In this document: in pieces, positions 1,310 through 44,226 of the stretch
How the letters are laid out: every line of letters starts with the position of its first letter
Numbering within the stretch: the stretch's first letter is position 1
NCBI GenBank assembly: GCA_017933995.1
Contig: JAGBKI010000025.1
Span: 1 to 44,671 of the forward strand
Source: Bacteroidaceae bacterium
Lineage (GTDB): Bacteria > Bacteroidota > Bacteroidia > Bacteroidales > Bacteroidaceae
Length of the DNA: 44,671 nt
Direction of reading: 5' to 3'
The notes under the pieces: model-generated
Databases searched by the model: none
The model's input: the letters and a program-made list of their open reading frames with translations, nothing else
Told to the model about the DNA's origin: nothing
Translations under genes and position numbers: made by a program

Positions 1310-1349
1310 AGTTTATGAGTTTATAAGTTGATCAGTTTATCAGTTGGGT
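1310..1349 (-). repeat. Octamer array AACTNNNN fused to the kinase start codon
   Basis: Read on the coding (minus) strand, five consecutive 8-bp units begin with AACT except the most distal, which is ACCCAACT: then AACTGATA-type units, AACTGATC, AACTTATA, AACTCATA, AACTCACC. They end a few bases before the ATG at 1305. The plus strand reads AGTTTATG, AGTTTATA, AGTTGATC, AGTTTATC, AGTTGGGT. A matching array precedes ilvC (8402-8441). Confidence 0.8.
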
Positions 1350-1430
1350 GGGGTTGCTGCGATGCAGCAACAAACACAACGGGAGCGCGGGAGAGACGGA
1401 AGGGACACAAAGGGAGCGGCGGGGGGCAGC

Positions 1431-1507
1431 CAACGGTCAACGGTCAACGGTCAATGGCCAATGGTCAATGGTCAATGATCAATGATCAACGGTCAATGAT
1501 CAACGGT
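1431..1507. repeat. Eleven in-phase heptads (CAAYGRY)
   Basis: Eleven uninterrupted 7-bp units on the plus strand: CAACGGT x3, CAATGGC, CAATGGT x2, CAATGAT x2, CAACGGT, CAATGAT, CAACGGT. On the minus strand they read as ATTGACC/GTTGATC-type units. The array overlaps the last codons of the DPP-IV gene, and its stop codon (1500-1502) is part of a unit. The same heptad family overlaps the stop codon of ilvN. Confidence 0.9.
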
Positions 1508-3704
1508 TCACCAGTTTCTCGCGCCAGTAGTCGGTGATAGTGCGGAAGAGGTGGAGGCGGGTGTTGCCGCCGTAGATGCTGTGGTTGCGGTTGGTGTAGA
1601 CCTGCTGGCGGAAAGGTATGCCGGCCTGCACGAGGGCTTCGCTCATCTCGTAGAAGTTGCGCACGTGGACGTTGTCATCGGCTGTGCCGTGGACGAGGAG
1701 GAGGTCGCCCTTGAGCGCAGCGGCGCGGCTGATGGGGTTGGTGGCGTAGCCGGCGGCGTTCTCCTGCGGGGTGCGCATATAGCGCTCGGTGTAGATGGTG
1801 TCGTAGTACTTCCAGTTGCTGGGGGCTGCGACGGCCACGCCGCATTTGAACGTGAAGCCGCCCTGCGCCATAGACATCAGCGTGTTGAAGCCGCCGAACG
1901 ACCATCCCCAGATGGCGATGCGCGCGCCGTCGACGTAGGGCAGCGAGGCGAGGTAGCGCGCGGCGTGGCACTGGTCTTCGCTCTCCTGCACACCGAGGTT
2001 GAGGTAGGTGCTCTGCTCGAAGGCTATGCCGCGCCCGCCGGTGCCTCGGCCGTCGACGCAGGCCACGATGATGCCGTCCTGCGCCCACACGCTCTCAAGC
2101 AGGCCGCCCCCGTAGAAGCCGAGGTTCCACGAGTCGGTCACCTCCTGCGAACCGGGACCGCTGTACTGGTACATCACGACGGGGTATTTCTTTGCAGGGT
2201 CGAAGTCGCGCGGCTTGACCATCCAGCCGTTGAGCGTGACGCCCTGCGGGGTGGTGAAGGTGAAGAACTCCTTGGTGCCGACGCGGCCTTCGAGGCTGGC
2301 GCTCAACTCGGCGTTGTCGGCCAGCGTCGCGGTGGTCTTCGCACCCTCGTTGAGCGTGGTGACGGGCGGCACGGTGGCGCTGCTGTACACGTTGAGGAAG
2401 TAGCGGTAGTTGGCCGAGAAGGTGGCCTCGTTGGTGCCGTCCTGGGGCGTGAGGCGCGTCACGCGGCCTTTCTTGTCGGCCACGTAGACCTCCTGGCGCA
2501 GGGGGCTGGTGGCGCGTGCGGCGTAGTAGACGCTCTCGGTCTTGGGGTCGTAGCCGTAGAGTTCGGTGACGTCGAAGTCGCCCGACGTGGCCTGGCGCAC
2601 CAGCTGGCCGCCGAGGGTGTAGACGTAGACGTGGGCGTGGCCGGTGCGACTGCTGATGAAGAGCATACGGTCGCCGAAGAACTGCAGGCTTTCGTAGGCC
2701 GTCTCCTTGACGTACTTGTCGCTGGTTTCGCGCACGGCGAGGGTGGCGACGGTGCTGCGCGGGTTGACCATATAGATGTCCATGCGATCCTGGTGGCGGT
2801 TGAGCGTGACGACGGCAAGGCGGTCGGCATCGTCGGTGAACTTGATGCGCGGCACGTAGTCGTCCTCGGCCAGGGGGACGTCGAGGGTGCGCACGGCGTG
2901 GGAGGCGATGTCGTAGGACAGCACAGCGACGCGCGAGTTGTCGGCGCCTGCCACGGGATACTTGTAGTCATACGAGCCGGGATACTCGTCATTCTCCTCG
3001 TGGACGGGGGCGAGGCCCTTGAACATCTGCATGTGGTAGATGGGCACCTGGCTCTCGTCGTAGCGCACCCAGGCCAGCATCTTGGAGTCGGCGCTGAAGT
3101 CGAAACTGCGGGCGGTGGTGAACTCCTCCTCGTTCACCCAGTCGGGCAGGCCGTTGATGACCTCGTTGAACTTGCCGTCGGTGGTCACCTGCACCTCGGC
3201 GCCGTCGAAGAGGAGTTTGGAGATGAAGAGGTTGCCGTCGCGCACGAAGGCCACCATCGTGCCGTCGGTCGAGAAGAGGGGCTGTTGCTGCGGCCCGCCA
3301 GTGGAGAGGGGCTGCACGTGGCCGTTCTGCAGGTTGCAGACGTAGTATTCGGCAGTGAAGGAGTGGCGGTAGATGCCCTTGTGCTGCGTCTCGATGAGCA
3401 CGGTGCGCCCGTCGGGCGAGATGACGTAGCCCTCGACGCGGCGTATGCCAGCCTTGGCGCCGTGGGTGGCGCAGTCGAAGAGCACGCCGACCTGCTCGCC
3501 CGTGCGGAACGAGCGGCGCACAATCTGGCGCTGGTCGTCGGAAATCTGCGTGTAGGTCTCGCCGTCGGCGGCGGGTTCCACGCCATAGATGCGTTCGGGG
3601 TAGTAGCGGTACTGCACGACGTCGCGCAGTTCGAGGCCGCGCTGGGCGGATGCCGCAAAGGCGGCGAAAAGAAGCAGGAGGGAGAGAAGCGTTTTGCGGT
3701 ACAT
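1500..3704 (-). CDS. Dipeptidyl-peptidase IV family serine peptidase (S9)
   Basis: 734 residues from the ATG at 3704. I chose this start because it begins a clear signal peptide (MYRKTLL, a leucine/alanine-rich core, then ASAQ). An in-frame extension upstream is non-coding in character. An N-terminal beta-propeller (about residues 40-480) is followed by the alpha/beta-hydrolase domain. The catalytic serine is S602 in GWSFGG (the family usually has GWSYGG), the acid lies in HGTADDN (676-677), and the histidine is H708 in NRNHSIYGG. The family removes Xaa-Pro or Xaa-Ala dipeptides in the periplasm or at the surface, helping peptide use. The last codons and the stop lie inside a heptad repeat, so the extreme C-terminus could vary between strains. 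Confidence 0.93.
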   Translation of the reverse strand: MYRKTLLSLLLLFAAFAASAQRGLELRDVVQYRYYPERIYGVEPAADGETYTQISDDQRQIVRRSFRTGEQVGVLFDCATHGAKAGIRRVEGYVISPDGRTVLIETQHKGIYRHSFTAEYYVCNLQNGHVQPLSTGGPQQQPLFSTDGTMVAFVRDGNLFISKLLFDGAEVQVTTDGKFNEVINGLPDWVNEEEFTTARSFDFSADSKMLAWVRYDESQVPIYHMQMFKGLAPVHEENDEYPGSYDYKYPVAGADNSRVAVLSYDIASHAVRTLDVPLAEDDYVPRIKFTDDADRLAVVTLNRHQDRMDIYMVNPRSTVATLAVRETSDKYVKETAYESLQFFGDRMLFISSRTGHAHVYVYTLGGQLVRQATSGDFDVTELYGYDPKTESVYYAARATSPLRQEVYVADKKGRVTRLTPQDGTNEATFSANYRYFLNVYSSATVPPVTTLNEGAKTTATLADNAELSASLEGRVGTKEFFTFTTPQGVTLNGWMVKPRDFDPAKKYPVVMYQYSGPGSQEVTDSWNLGFYGGGLLESVWAQDGIIVACVDGRGTGGRGIAFEQSTYLNLGVQESEDQCHAARYLASLPYVDGARIAIWGWSFGGFNTLMSMAQGGFTFKCGVAVAAPSNWKYYDTIYTERYMRTPQENAAGYATNPISRAAALKGDLLLVHGTADDNVHVRNFYEMSEALVQAGIPFRQQVYTNRNHSIYGGNTRLHLFRTITDYWREKLVNR

Positions 3705-3926: not shown

Positions 3927-4036
3927 CGCTATAAGCGAGGCAAAATTCGCACAAATTGTAATGTAAGCAGGAGTTTATACGAGATAAAGTACCGATAGCC
4001 GTAGCCGACGGAACTGCGGCGAACAGTAATGGCACT

Positions 4037-4080
4037 ATAACTCCCCCTAACTCCCATATAACTCCCTTATAACCCCCTTT
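4037..4080 (+). repeat. Degenerate ATAACTCCC repeats before ilvD
   Basis: Four imperfect units built around AACTCCC (ATAACTCCCC, CTAACTCCC, ATAACTCCCT, ATAACCCCCT) fill the last 45 bp before the ilvD ATG at 4084. They resemble, but are less regular than, the AACTNNNN arrays before ilvC and the kinase gene. Confidence 0.55.
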
Positions 4081-5883: not shown

Positions 5884-5900
5884 CAGAAATAGAAACACTG

Positions 5901-5963
5901 AAACTCTAGAAACACTAGAGACTCTAGAAACACTAGAGAAACTAGAATCACTAGAAACATTAG
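5901..5963 (+). repeat. Seven 9-bp repeats (AAACACTAG) between ilvD and ilvB
   Basis: Seven consecutive 9-bp units: AAACTCTAG, AAACACTAG, AGACTCTAG, AAACACTAG, AGAAACTAG, AATCACTAG, AAACATTAG. A decayed eighth unit lies in front. The array fills the gap between the ilvD stop and the ilvB ATG, ending 7 nt before the latter. Six copies of CTAG, a tetranucleotide usually scarce in bacteria, stand in 63 bp. Confidence 0.85.
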
Positions 5964-7695: not shown

Positions 7696-8325
7696 ATGAA
7701 CAGTAACACTTTCGCCTCCGAGATAGCCACGCCCGAGGCTATGCGCACCGCCTCGAAGTTTCCCGCGCTGGACGACGGCCTGACGTGGTACACGCTCATC
7801 ATCGTCAGCGAGAACCTCGCGGGCGTGCTCAACCAGATCACCAACGTCTTCACGCGCCGCCAGCTCAACATCGAGAGCCTCAACGTGTCGCCCTCCGGCT
7901 TCGAGGGGCTGCACCGCTACACCGTCACCTGCCGCACCGACGAGGCCACCGTGAAAAAGGTCGTCAAGCAGATTGAGAAGAAAATTGACGTTGTGCTGGC
8001 CCGCTTCTACACCGAGAACGAGGTCTACGTGATGGAGCAGGCGCTCTACAAGATTGCCACCGCCCGCCTCACCGAGAGCCACGACATTTCCAAGGCCATA
8101 CGCCAGCACGACGCAAAGATTGTGGAGGTGAACTCCGCCTTCAGCATCGTCAGCATCGAGGGTCTGCCCAACGACATCGTGGCACTGCGCCACAAGTTGC
8201 GCGAAGCTGGCGGTATGCTCCAGTTCGTCAGCAGCGGCATCGTCGCCGTCACCCGTTCCGCCAACGAGGAACTCGCCAACCTCCTCGAACGGCGGAAGCG
8301 CGAGGAATTGACCATTGAACATTGA
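7696..8325 (+). CDS. ilvN: Acetolactate synthase small (regulatory) subunit
   Basis: 209 residues. The N-terminal ACT domain (about residues 33-105; LIIVSENLAGVLNQI, RRQLNIESL) binds valine for feedback control. A second domain (about 115-195) is typical of the longer small subunits. It partners IlvB. The final residues (LTIEH) and the TGA stop are encoded inside a 7-bp ATTGACC-type repeat, so the true conserved C-terminus ends a few residues earlier and could vary with repeat number. The symbol ilvH is also used for this subunit. Confidence 0.94.
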   Translation: MNSNTFASEIATPEAMRTASKFPALDDGLTWYTLIIVSENLAGVLNQITNVFTRRQLNIESLNVSPSGFEGLHRYTVTCRTDEATVKKVVKQIEKKIDVVLARFYTENEVYVMEQALYKIATARLTESHDISKAIRQHDAKIVEVNSAFSIVSIEGLPNDIVALRHKLREAGGMLQFVSSGIVAVTRSANEELANLLERRKREELTIEH

Positions 8326-8392
8326 CCATTGCCATCCGGCATGGATTCGTCGCATAGCCAATGGTCAATGGCAATGTTCAATGTTCAATGCC
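8307..8392. repeat. Inverted heptad arrays over the ilvN stop codon
   Basis: Plus-strand units ATTGACC, ATTGAAC, ATTGACC, ATTGCCA (8307-8334) are followed, after a 24-bp unique spacer, by the inverted family CAATGGT, CAATGG, CAATGTT, CAATGTT, CAATGCC (8359-8392). The two arrays can pair over at least 11 bp (ATTGACCATTG with CAATGGTCAAT). The ilvN stop is in the first array. This is the same heptad family as at 1431-1507. Confidence 0.85.
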
Positions 8393-8401
8393 CCCCCCAC
8401 C

Positions 8402-8441
8402 AACTAAACAACTAAAAAACTAATAACCTAAACAACTATGG
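8402..8441 (+). repeat. Octamer array AACTNNNN running into the ilvC start codon
   Basis: Five consecutive 8-bp units: AACTAAAC, AACTAAAA, AACTAATA, ACCTAAAC, AACTATGG. The last one contains the ilvC ATG (8438-8440). The register, the unit start (AACT) and the position relative to the start codon are the same as in the array before the kinase gene at 1310-1349. The leader is A-rich and probably unstructured. Confidence 0.85.
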
Positions 8442-9481
8442 CACAAATCAATTTCGGCGGCGTCATCGAAGAGGTGGCCACCCGCGAAGAGTTCCCCCTT
8501 GAGAAGGCGCGCGACGTGCTCGCCGACGAAACCATCGCCGTCATCGGCTACGGCATCCAGGGTCCTGGCCAGGCATGCAACCTGCGCGACAACGGCTTCC
8601 GCGTCATCGTGGGCCAGCGCCCCGGCAAGACCTACGAAAAGGCCGTGGCCGACGGATGGGTGCCCGGCGAGACCCTCTTCGGCATCGAGGAGGCTTGCGA
8701 GCGCGCCACCATCGTCTGCATGCTGCTCAGCGACGCGGCGCAGATTGCCCAATGGCCCAACGTTAAGAAGCACCTCACCGCTGGCAAGGCTCTCTACTTC
8801 AGCCACGGCTTCGCCATCACCTACAAAGAGCGCACGGGCATCATTCCGCCCGCCGACATCGACGTCATTATGGTGGCCCCCAAGGGGAGCGGCACCAGCC
8901 TGCGCACCCTCTTCCTCGAAGGGCGCGGCCTGAACAGCAGCTACGCCGTGTTCCAGGACGCCACTGGGCGCGCCGAGGAGCGCACCCTCGCACTGGGCAT
9001 CGGCGTGGGCAGCGGCTACCTGTTCAAGACCGACTTCAAGCACGAGGTCTACAGCGACCTCACTGGCGAGCGCGGCGCACTGATGGGCGCCGTGCAGGGG
9101 CTGTTCCTCGCACAGTACGAGACGCTGCGCGAGCACGGACACACGCCCTCCGAAGCCTTCAACGAAACTGTCGAGGAGTTCACGCAGTCGCTCCTCCCCA
9201 TGGTGGGCAAGAACGGCATGGACTGGATGTACGCCAACTGCTCCACCACCGCCCAGCGCGGCGCGTTGGACTGGATGGGGCCGTTCCACGACGCCATCAA
9301 ACCCGTGATGGAACGCCTCTACCAGAGCGTGGCCAGCGGCGAAGAGGCACAGCGCAGCATCGACAGCAACTCGCAGCCCGACTACCGCGAGAAACTCGAA
9401 GAGGAACTGCGCCAGCTGCGTGAGAGCGAGATGTGGCGCACGGGCGAAACCGTCCGCCGCCTCCGCCCCGAAAACAACTGA
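8438..9481 (+). CDS. ilvC: Ketol-acid reductoisomerase (NADP+)
   Basis: 347 residues, class I (short) form. It isomerises and reduces acetolactate or acetohydroxybutyrate with Mg2+ and NADPH. The dinucleotide-binding turn GYGIQGPG is at about residues 33-40, followed by the [11 protein letters not shown] loop that sets cofactor preference. The C-terminal knotted helical domain holds the metal ligands ([12 protein letters not shown], then ESLR-like segments). It is the last gene of the ilv operon and is followed by a terminator. The 112-bp gap from ilvN is filled by heptad and octamer repeats. Confidence 0.97.
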
Positions 9482-14243: not shown

Positions 14244-14266
14244 TTGCCACGAAAAAGTTTTTTTAT

Positions 14267-14330
14267 AAGCCAAAGAAAAATTTATTTAAGCCAAAGAAAA
14301 AATTCTTTGGCTCAAAGAAAAATCCTTTTG
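14267..14330. repeat. A-rich AAGCCAAAGAAAAA repeats
   Basis: AAGCCAAAGAAAAA occurs at 14267-14280 and 14288-14301, and a related TCAAAGAAAAATCC follows. Copy two also forms a perfect 10-bp hairpin, AGCCAAAGAA (14289-14298) with TTCTTTGGCT (14303-14312). Period is 21 bp. Confidence 0.7.
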
Positions 14331-26577: not shown

Positions 26578-27189
26578 ATGAAAAAGACGCTCATTCTCCT
26601 TATGCTCGTCCTCCCTTTGCTGGCCGTCGCTCAGCACAACGACGAAAGCAAATACCTCAAAGGCGCTGTGCCAGTCGAAAACGGCTTCGTCGTGTTCCGC
26701 CACCACTTCAACTGCACTGGCAAGTCGCAAGAGGAAATCCGCGCAGCCTTGGTGCAATACGTCAAGGACAACGTGGTGAAAGGCCCGAACGCACTGCCGC
26801 AGGCACGTCTCACTGACAGCGGCGACAGCACGGGCTACATTGCCGCCAGCATTGAAGAGACGCTCTACTTCCGCCGCAGCGCGCTTGTCACCCACAGCAC
26901 CCGCTTTTACTATCAACTTGTGCTGACACCCCAGGACGGCGGTTTCGACATCGAGATGCGCCGCCTGCACTACCTCTACGAGGAAGCGGCCAACGCGGGC
27001 TACCACATCAGCGACTTTCCCGCCGAGGAGTGGATCACCGACGAGGAAGCGCTCAATCGCAAAGGCCAACTGACGCAGCTGGCAGGCAAGAAGTTCCGTC
27101 GCTTCACCATTGACCGCAAGGACGAAATCTTCCAAGGCGCTGCCCGAGCCGCCGGAGCCGATGCCCGACGCGTAATAGAGGAATACTGA
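26578..27189 (+). CDS. Secreted DUF4468 family protein
   Basis: 203 residues from the ATG at 26578, which begins a signal peptide (MKKTLILLMLVLPLLAVAQ). The rest matches the DUF4468 pattern of Bacteroidetes with a TBP-like fold: KGAVPVENGFVVF opening, SIEETLYFRR, FYYQLVLTPQDGGFDIEM, then a C-terminal EEWITDEEALN and a helix. Its role is unknown; it is presumably periplasmic. An AT-rich TATTTTCG (26539-26546) just upstream may be the -7 box. The lipoprotein gene follows after 69 bp, containing a hairpin. Confidence 0.78.
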   Translation: MKKTLILLMLVLPLLAVAQHNDESKYLKGAVPVENGFVVFRHHFNCTGKSQEEIRAALVQYVKDNVVKGPNALPQARLTDSGDSTGYIAASIEETLYFRRSALVTHSTRFYYQLVLTPQDGGFDIEMRRLHYLYEEAANAGYHISDFPAEEWITDEEALNRKGQLTQLAGKKFRRFTIDRKDEIFQGAARAAGADARRVIEEY

Positions 27190-33533: not shown

Positions 33534-33617
33534 CAAATTAAGGCTTAATTTGTGCAAACTTAGGCTTAGTTTGTACAAACTTAGGCTTAATTTGGCGAAA
33601 CTTAGGCTTAATTTGCA
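33534..33617. repeat. Four 21-bp tandem repeats, palindromic core, locus A
   Basis: Four contiguous 21-bp units (33534-33554, 33555-33575, 33576-33596, 33597-33617) of the form CAAACTTAGGCTTAATTTGTA. The first unit's core AAATTAAG-G-CTTAATTT is a perfect 8-bp-arm palindrome; in the others one or two bases differ. The sequence after the last unit is GATTT. Four units of the same repeat lie at 44143-44226. The flanking 33281-33932 gap holds no gene. Confidence 0.9.
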
Positions 33618-44142: not shown

Positions 44143-44226
44143 CAAACTAAGCCTTAATTTCTACAAACTAAGGCTTAATTTGTACAAACATAGGCTTAGT
44201 TTCTACAAATTAAGGCTTAATTTGCA
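44143..44226. repeat. Four 21-bp tandem repeats, palindromic core, locus B
   Basis: Units 44143-44163, 44164-44184, 44185-44205 and 44206-44226 match the repeat of locus A (33534-33617), e.g. CAAACTAAGGCTTAATTTGTA and CAAATTAAGGCTTAATTTGCA. Both loci have exactly four units and both are followed by GA(A/T)TT. Here the array is joined to another 21-bp repeat. Confidence 0.9.

Follow-up and report, generated by a model that had tools for sequence, protein, structure and literature searches.

Tandem repeats at two gene junctions of the window (the whole stretch of 44,671 nucleotides that was analysed) look like pieces of a family of palindromes with tandem-repeat arms, located between genes and inside some genes of this Bacteroidales-type bacterium. 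One gene often appears to take its stop codon, and the next its leader, from such a repeat. We consider it moderately probable that these arrays derive from insertable palindromic repeats, as whole arms or as what remains of them, and that coding constraint has sorted the repeats; in this reading we infer both mobility and function.

Results

The first junction lies on the minus strand, between a DPP-IV (S9) peptidase gene (1500-3704 from the called start, the ORF being open to 3905) and a downstream APH/choline-kinase-like gene (223-1305). The second lies on the plus strand, between ilvN (acetolactate synthase small subunit, 7696-8325) and ilvC (ketol-acid reductoisomerase, 8438-9481). The sequence-only reading had placed a 7-bp array at the upstream stop codon and an 8-bp array at the downstream start codon; both are present at the two junctions, and its gene identities (APH/choline-kinase-like, DPP-IV/S9 peptidase, ilvD, ilvB, ilvN, ilvC) are correct. 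It had also called the spacer between the arrays unique, which is wrong at both places.

At the first junction a TTGACCA-type 7-bp array (1431-1507, minus strand, 11 copies by TRF), a left arm without an inverted partner, provides the last codons and the TGA stop (1500-1502, minus) of the DPP-IV-type gene. An 8-bp AACTNATN array (1310-1345, minus strand, 4.5 copies by TRF) forms the leader of the kinase gene and stops 4 nt short of its ATG (1305-1303). The spacer contains a 29-bp segment with a small hairpin at its end (1356-1384, minus strand), which is also found in L143:15399-15533, a junction that likewise has a heptad-type stop and octamers at the start. A full palindrome related to this segment was located, by reading and pattern scan, in the convergent junction L144:3930-4221. 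On the insertion reading, the first junction is a mosaic of a heptad left arm, part of another palindrome and an octamer right arm.

At the second junction the last residues of IlvN and its TGA stop (8323-8325) are encoded by a heptad arm (TTGACCATTGAACATTGACCATTG, 8307-8335, plus strand; TRF and RNA fold). This is followed by a core (CATTGCCATCCGGC...TCGTCGCATAGCCAATG, 8327-8363, plus strand), which occurs in both orientations elsewhere in the genome sample, and by an inverted second heptad arm (8359-8390, minus strand; TRF) that pairs with the first in the RNA fold. An 8-bp AACT array (8401-8437, plus strand; 8401-8438 by TRF), the leader of ilvC, then directly adjoins the ilvC ATG (8438). 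The predicted RNA hairpin (-43.1 kcal/mol, z=-5.4) leaves the octamer leader and the ATG unpaired. The window contains no Rfam family above the gathering score. A phage origin of 1306-1507 was rejected, there being no match in 50,697 phage records at E 1e-5, with a low-complexity filter that may hide repeats.

Relative to congeners with short spacers, the arrays are gains. The kinase junction measures 194 bp here vs 55 bp in G019 and 64 bp in G012, and the ilvN/ilvC spacer 112 bp vs 29 bp in G019, the short versions being free of arrays; the kinase and IlvC proteins of these congeners are 92-96% identical. At the kinase junction the repeats take the place of the whole native spacer, and the DPP-IV protein ends at an equal position with a repeat-derived stop (by eye). 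Sequence before ilvC was viewed in 25 of 80 loci (L031-L110). No such arrays were seen by eye at ilvN/ilvC of G019, G051 and G004. The G012 ilvN/ilvC junction has its own heptad hairpin, then an octamer array of different sequence, ACCTTAAA, as leader. The idea of an insertable intergenic cassette survives in that the arrays were gained and their layout recurs in G012, but not in that they form one module. Of 25 neighbouring gene pairs conserved with G019, 11 have arrays in the own genome (G000), 10 of these having none in G019; of 17 conserved with G012, 9 have arrays, 7 of them with none in G012. Arrays present only in the relative number 2 of 25 (G019) and 2 of 17 (G012). A hairpin conserved at orthologous junctions was mostly not found.

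The own-genome sample comprised 20 stretches plus the window (427,856 of 2,476,762 bases, G+C 60.5%), in which 328 genes were called with a codon-usage script written for this analysis, used in place of a standard caller. Most of the genomes are draft assemblies, and the own species is represented by one strain. At each junction the post-stop sequence was matched against the reverse complement of the stretch preceding the next start codon. The test excluded junctions of less than 70 bases (as tested) and spacers of more than 500 bp. As control the arms were exchanged between junctions, which keeps composition and dialect. An inverted repeat (score of at least 12) was found at 28 of 130 co-directional junctions, against 3.0 expected from the swapped arms, with one arm at the upstream stop codon and the other at the downstream start codon. 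The stretches were mostly picked where arrays had been listed, and such frequencies may be overstated, although the control uses identical regions. Convergent junctions gave 7 of 29 (0.1 expected), several being ordinary short terminator-like palindromes without tandem arms, and divergent junctions 0 of 22 (0.6 expected). With slightly wider limits, an inverted repeat and a tandem array coexist in 32 of 233 spacers (30 co-directional, 2 convergent).

Most arms are tandem arrays of 7-10 bp units, in several "dialects": TTGACCA, AACTNATN, GTTTAAGAG-type 9-10-mers, ACTTTTA, AACCTAAA, AATTAGG, AGTAGTTA and GAGTACTCT. When the order of units was shuffled within one arm, the match dropped with p<=0.05 in 36 and p<=0.01 in 20 of 49 hairpins from five genomes, p-values that may be too small since the shuffle also moves the non-array flanks of the arm. 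In most hairpins, then, one arm repeats the other unit by unit, which goes beyond two arrays with a unit in common. In samples of the relatives, also partly picked at array hits, inverted arms exceeded expectation in G012 (10/74, 1.5 expected), G050 (5/32, 0.3) and G034 (3/35, 0.2). The excess was small in G023 (2/13, 0.5), G004 (2/26, 0.2) and G019 (2/51, 0.0), and G032 had 1/34 (0.1 expected). None were found in the samples of G040 (0/11), G057 (0/5), G033 (0/16) and G037 (0/8).

The heptad hairpins have a common core, found in both orientations. Its 13-bp end TCGTSGCGYAGCC (at most one mismatch) occurs at 13 intergenic places in the own-genome sample, where 3.8 are expected from the genic rate, and at 12 in a 339-kb sample of G012, where 0.2 are expected. 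By reading, it lies beside at least one tandem arm at 11 of the 13 and 11 of the 12 places, respectively. The arms around it are TTGACCA, GTTTAAGAG, AATTAGG or GTTTATT in the own genome and AGGTTTTG-type 8-mers in G012. Neither the G019 sample nor the smaller ones from nine further congeners contain an intergenic copy. Genome-wide, the exact core shows a mild excess in G000 (13 vs 7 reversed), a larger one in G012 (17 vs 3), and no clear excess over the reversed control in the other 56 congeners. The AACT octamer hairpins are without this core in a pattern scan of the sample. A mobile palindrome may possibly keep its core while its arms are rewritten, lineage by lineage, with a new tandem unit, copied arm-to-arm through the hairpin and extended to the stop or start codon; we put this forward tentatively, as a rather doubtful extension. 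If it is true, operon spacers would be replaced by species-specific dialects, and genes would take their stops and leaders from the element.

The repeats also enter genes. An AddA-like UvrD helicase (L141:5516-8857) contains three in-frame heptad-coded insertions (NGQWSMVNGQ-type). The inserted peptide is absent at all three sites in 6 aligned congeners, the linker at the third site being of variable length in all of them. The AddA-like gene of G012 has one in-frame insertion, with the core and both arms, which is absent from the other 6 aligned sequences including G000. Under the strict pattern all in-gene heptads, 7 in G000 and 3 in G023, read in the TGGTCAA sense, and the G012 sample has no such heptads. 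A looser one-mismatch scan of G000 gave 8 of 9, the exception being a 14-bp match in the window (27103-27116, up to one mismatch) in the TTGACC sense. In-frame copies thus also add peptide segments to conserved proteins.

The peptidoglycan editing factor PgeF (L156:6947-7702) contains an in-frame MVNGQWSTVN segment. In L155:7253-10546, L158:4602-7958 and L160:12510-13550, heptad-coded residues directly precede a C-terminal IYDLQGR-type tail, which may be a type IX secretion tail; an NCBIfam scan found no such tail on these proteins.

The unit sequences themselves account for this sorting. TTGACCA contains a stop in each of its three frames and its complement TGGTCAA in none, and the three AACT-type octamers tested from the own genome contain stops in all frames of both strands. 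The distribution of heptads and octamers relative to genes can therefore be explained without special recognition of gene boundaries. A TTGA stop context was seen (by eye) in 8 of 9 heptad-at-stop junctions vs 20 of 320 genes overall, those included. Octamer arrays are intergenic in 25 of 26 cases and heptad arrays in 18 of 28; 15 of the 26 octamer arrays, with AACT in sense, have their end 1-18 nt upstream of a called start codon. Of the intergenic heptad arrays, 16 of 18 have outward-pointing units, and of the octamer arrays 23 of 26; the two exceptional heptad arrays are arms of hairpins that lie off-centre in long spacers. The shared polarity relative to the genes, which the sequence-only reading had counted against coincidence, is largely a consequence of palindromic symmetry, because inverted arms point outward whatever the directions of the genes. 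Stand-alone arms are common in the sample.

Own-genome arrays near gene ends, read into the gene, have more C than G in 88 of 109 cases and more G than C in 19 (2 ties), the exceptions being largely heptads. The balance is reversed in the heptad-rich G012 (6 vs 11) and G023 (1 vs 7), and no single composition rule covers all dialects, as heptads run opposite. Ordinary leaders are G-poor (C 0.29, G 0.16), and ordinary post-stop sequence is not G-rich. The non-heptad start side thus obeys a general demand of leaders, and the stop side results from being its inverted partner. Prevotella leaders are described in PMC3155529 as low in G+C, unstructured and without functional Shine-Dalgarno interaction.

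Discussion

If the palindromes are insertable, an element would consist of tandem units, a core and the same units inverted. Copies would be placed by some insertion process. Slippage would then alter the number of units, and template switching within the hairpin, or inverted duplication, would copy one arm onto the other. Purifying selection would retain the arrays where coding permits. Because TTGACCA has a stop in all three frames, its sense orientation would be acceptable at the 3' end of a gene and would there provide the stop codon. TGGTCAA, stop-free in any frame, is the orientation found inside genes, and the AACT-type octamers, with stops in all frames of both strands, would be confined to intergenic sequence. 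Except for heptads, the arm kept beside a start codon would be the G-poor strand, in agreement with the initiation of translation in Bacteroidota, which does without Shine-Dalgarno pairing.

The main rival is growth in place without mobility. Seeds at gene ends would expand by replication slippage, palindrome correction would copy the arms, and the dialect would reflect slippage history together with selection for AT-rich, G-poor leaders. Several observations suit it: unit copy number varies between sites, the dialect differs between species at one and the same junction (L156:12224 vs its G012 counterpart), and ordinary leaders are G-poor as well. However, one unit is present at dozens of unrelated sites, the heptad unit occurs three times in one gene, the AddA-like helicase, whose aligned orthologues lack the insertions, and a common core lies between different arms. 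We think growth in place rather unlikely.

Against the insertion reading, no transposase, target-site duplication or clean empty site was found; the native spacer has been lost outright and is not merely interrupted. The mild genome-wide excess of the exact core, its absence from the AACT octamer hairpins, the frequency of stand-alone arms, the TTGACC-sense match inside a gene and the lack of one composition rule for all dialects also count against it. Compared with MITEs, the arms vary in unit and length, and no target-site duplication can be read because spacers are replaced boundary to boundary. The genome has five Y1_Tnp (Y1 transposase) matches. None of the five fetched Y1 loci contains the core sequence TCGTCGCGTAGCC (at most two mismatches) or the heptad pair; one of them (L204) has a GGTTTAAGAGGTTTAA match. 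On this basis Y1/RAYT mobilisation was rejected. The Y1 genes of L201 and L203 are flanked, by eye, by other repeated palindromes (CGCTGAAAGCG; GGCCTGAAAGGCC/CCCAGGGC...GCCCTGGG types), and these are perhaps a separate REP-transposase pair. Long spacers made of GGCCTGAAAGGCC and CAGGGC-type palindromes were observed at L144:18319-18572 and L158:4206-4601.

Coupling of translation by the hairpin, which would hide the downstream start region until a ribosome ending at the arm-1 stop codon melts it, is physically possible. When the final 40 nt of the upstream gene, together with the 15 nt that follow its stop, are held open in a model, the mean unpaired probability of the start region is predicted to rise from 0.54 to 0.67 at 28 hairpin junctions and to stay unchanged (0.59 vs 0.59) at 53 array-free ones. 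However, this gain follows from geometry alone, and tandem-arm palindromes also lie between convergent genes and inside a gene, with no start codon to regulate. Moreover, the ilvN/ilvC hairpin does not include the start codon, and the modelled accessibility there falls from 0.88 to 0.68 when the stop region is open. We regard such coupling as an improbable reason for the arrays. A separate idea, that array leaders are less structured than ordinary ones, was dropped: the difference is not significant (0.63 vs 0.59, p=0.30; any dialect, 26 junctions vs 53).

The sequence-only reading had suggested a single composite cassette that joins heptads at the stop to octamers at the start and is inserted or maintained as one piece to tune expression, and it had judged coincidence unlikely. 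The latter is right for each array by itself: in the 2,476,762-base draft genome the heptad pattern TCAAYGRTCAAYGR has 51 matches vs 0 reversed and the octamer pattern AACTNNNNAACTNNNNAACT 169 vs 0. As to their pairing, octamers stand at the start in 4 of 9 heptad-at-stop junctions vs 10 of 107 others (p=0.012, own-genome sample). The first window junction (1305) and L143:15398, both of this kind, have the 29-bp spacer in common, and the G012 ilvN/ilvC junction has a similar order in another dialect. However, without the window's own two junctions, from which the idea came, the figures are 2 of 7 vs 10 of 107 (p=0.16), in stretches chosen around array hits. Both units recur across the genome, but in congeners the two families occur apart. 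In a scan of 101 genomes, heptads number 330 in G012, 73 in the own genome, 65 in G023 and 27 in G032, with a reversed control of 0 in all. Octamers in the heptad-rich congeners number 0 (G012), 1 (G023) and 0 (G032), and they occur without heptads in G034 (24, control 19), G050 (18, control 11) and G039 (14, control 5). These congener octamer counts are less certain because the reversed pattern itself matches (G032 31, G037 74, G034 19). The single-module reading is thus very improbable.

That the hairpins are intrinsic transcription terminators or stabilisers of mRNA 3' ends is more improbable still: their occurrence where genes are co-directional or convergent, and their absence from 22 tested divergent junctions, would suit this, but of 28 co-directional hairpins 1 has a U-tract, scored as a run of T5 or longer close to the start codon, no terminator-like site was called at either window junction, and an in-gene copy exists.

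Cyanobacterial short tandemly repeated repetitive (STRR) heptamers form heptamer arrays between genes. They belong to another phylum and have other units than the present arrays, and they are not known to carry inverted arms or a core. Rickettsia palindromic elements are palindromic repeats kept in frame inside protein genes. The in-gene copies described here are like them in being in frame, and one case, the AddA-like gene of G012, has a whole palindrome in frame. The arms of the Rickettsia elements are not known to be tandem arrays.

The closest description to the present repeats is that of the TAACTGA start-codon repeats. That report (MacGregor 2015, PMC4679880) describes short tandem units just before start codons in fixed orientation, in five Bacteroidetes, with close relatives of some being without them. 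It also describes one reversed set just after a stop codon in Flexibacter litoralis, other heptamers within the spacers, some repeats within ORFs and a suggested translational role. The present arrays are similar in being tandem units in forward orientation close upstream of start codons, in being missing from relatives and in having some copies within genes. In contrast to a single heptamer, they comprise the octamer AACTNATN, the heptad TTGACCA and other dialects, with inverted partner arms and a common core. Exact TAACTGA units were not found as such; among the matches listed, TAACTGA occurs only within AACTGATT-type units.

According to PMC3733652 (2013), the GTAG- and CGTC-tagged REPs are palindromes with a length of 20-40 bp, a stem of 5-13 bp and a tag at the terminus. 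They lie between genes in unidirectional or convergent arrangement, mostly downstream of coding sequence, and some are inside genes. The CGTC type, with an 8-9 bp stem and a 4-5 nt loop, is found in Bacteroidetes without a dedicated transposase, and the same paper names the Rickettsia elements RPE-4 and RPE-6. The present repeats resemble these REPs in their placement between genes and in their in-gene copies. Compared by description, they differ in having long tandem arrays, about 90 bp at most, for arms, with CGTC in the loop between them and not as a terminal tag next to a short stem-loop. Nor do copies flank the Y1 (RAYT) transposase gene in the five Y1 loci, as they would in a GTAG REP/RAYT pair. 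In the open-licence literature searched (titles and starts of abstracts, with most subscription journals outside), no work on these units or on tandem-armed palindromes in Bacteroidota was found; the sequence TTGACCATTGACC occurs in one paper, on a secretion transporter.

If the insertion reading is true, spacers in essential biosynthetic operons have been overwritten by repeats that donate stop codons and leaders, and the unit content, as stops per frame, decides where each repeat can live. This would amount to a simple orientation rule for tandem repeats near genes, and it would offer a possible explanation for start-codon repeats in Beggiatoaceae, cyanobacteria and a few Bacteroidetes.

Other arrays were observed in the window. 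An 11-bp TATAACTCCCT array precedes ilvD (4036-4079), and a 9-bp TAGAAACAC array lies between ilvD and ilvB (5890-5963), where G019 has a 70-bp spacer without an array. Three 21-bp arrays are located at 14266-14323, 33534-33615 and 44143-44223, two of them with similar units (CAAACTTAGGCTTAATTTGTG, CAAACTAAGGCTTAATTTCTA). Near the contig end, 43262-43598 and 43667-44134 contain about 5 copies, at 97%, of a 66-bp unit and a C-rich array of 21/42 bp.
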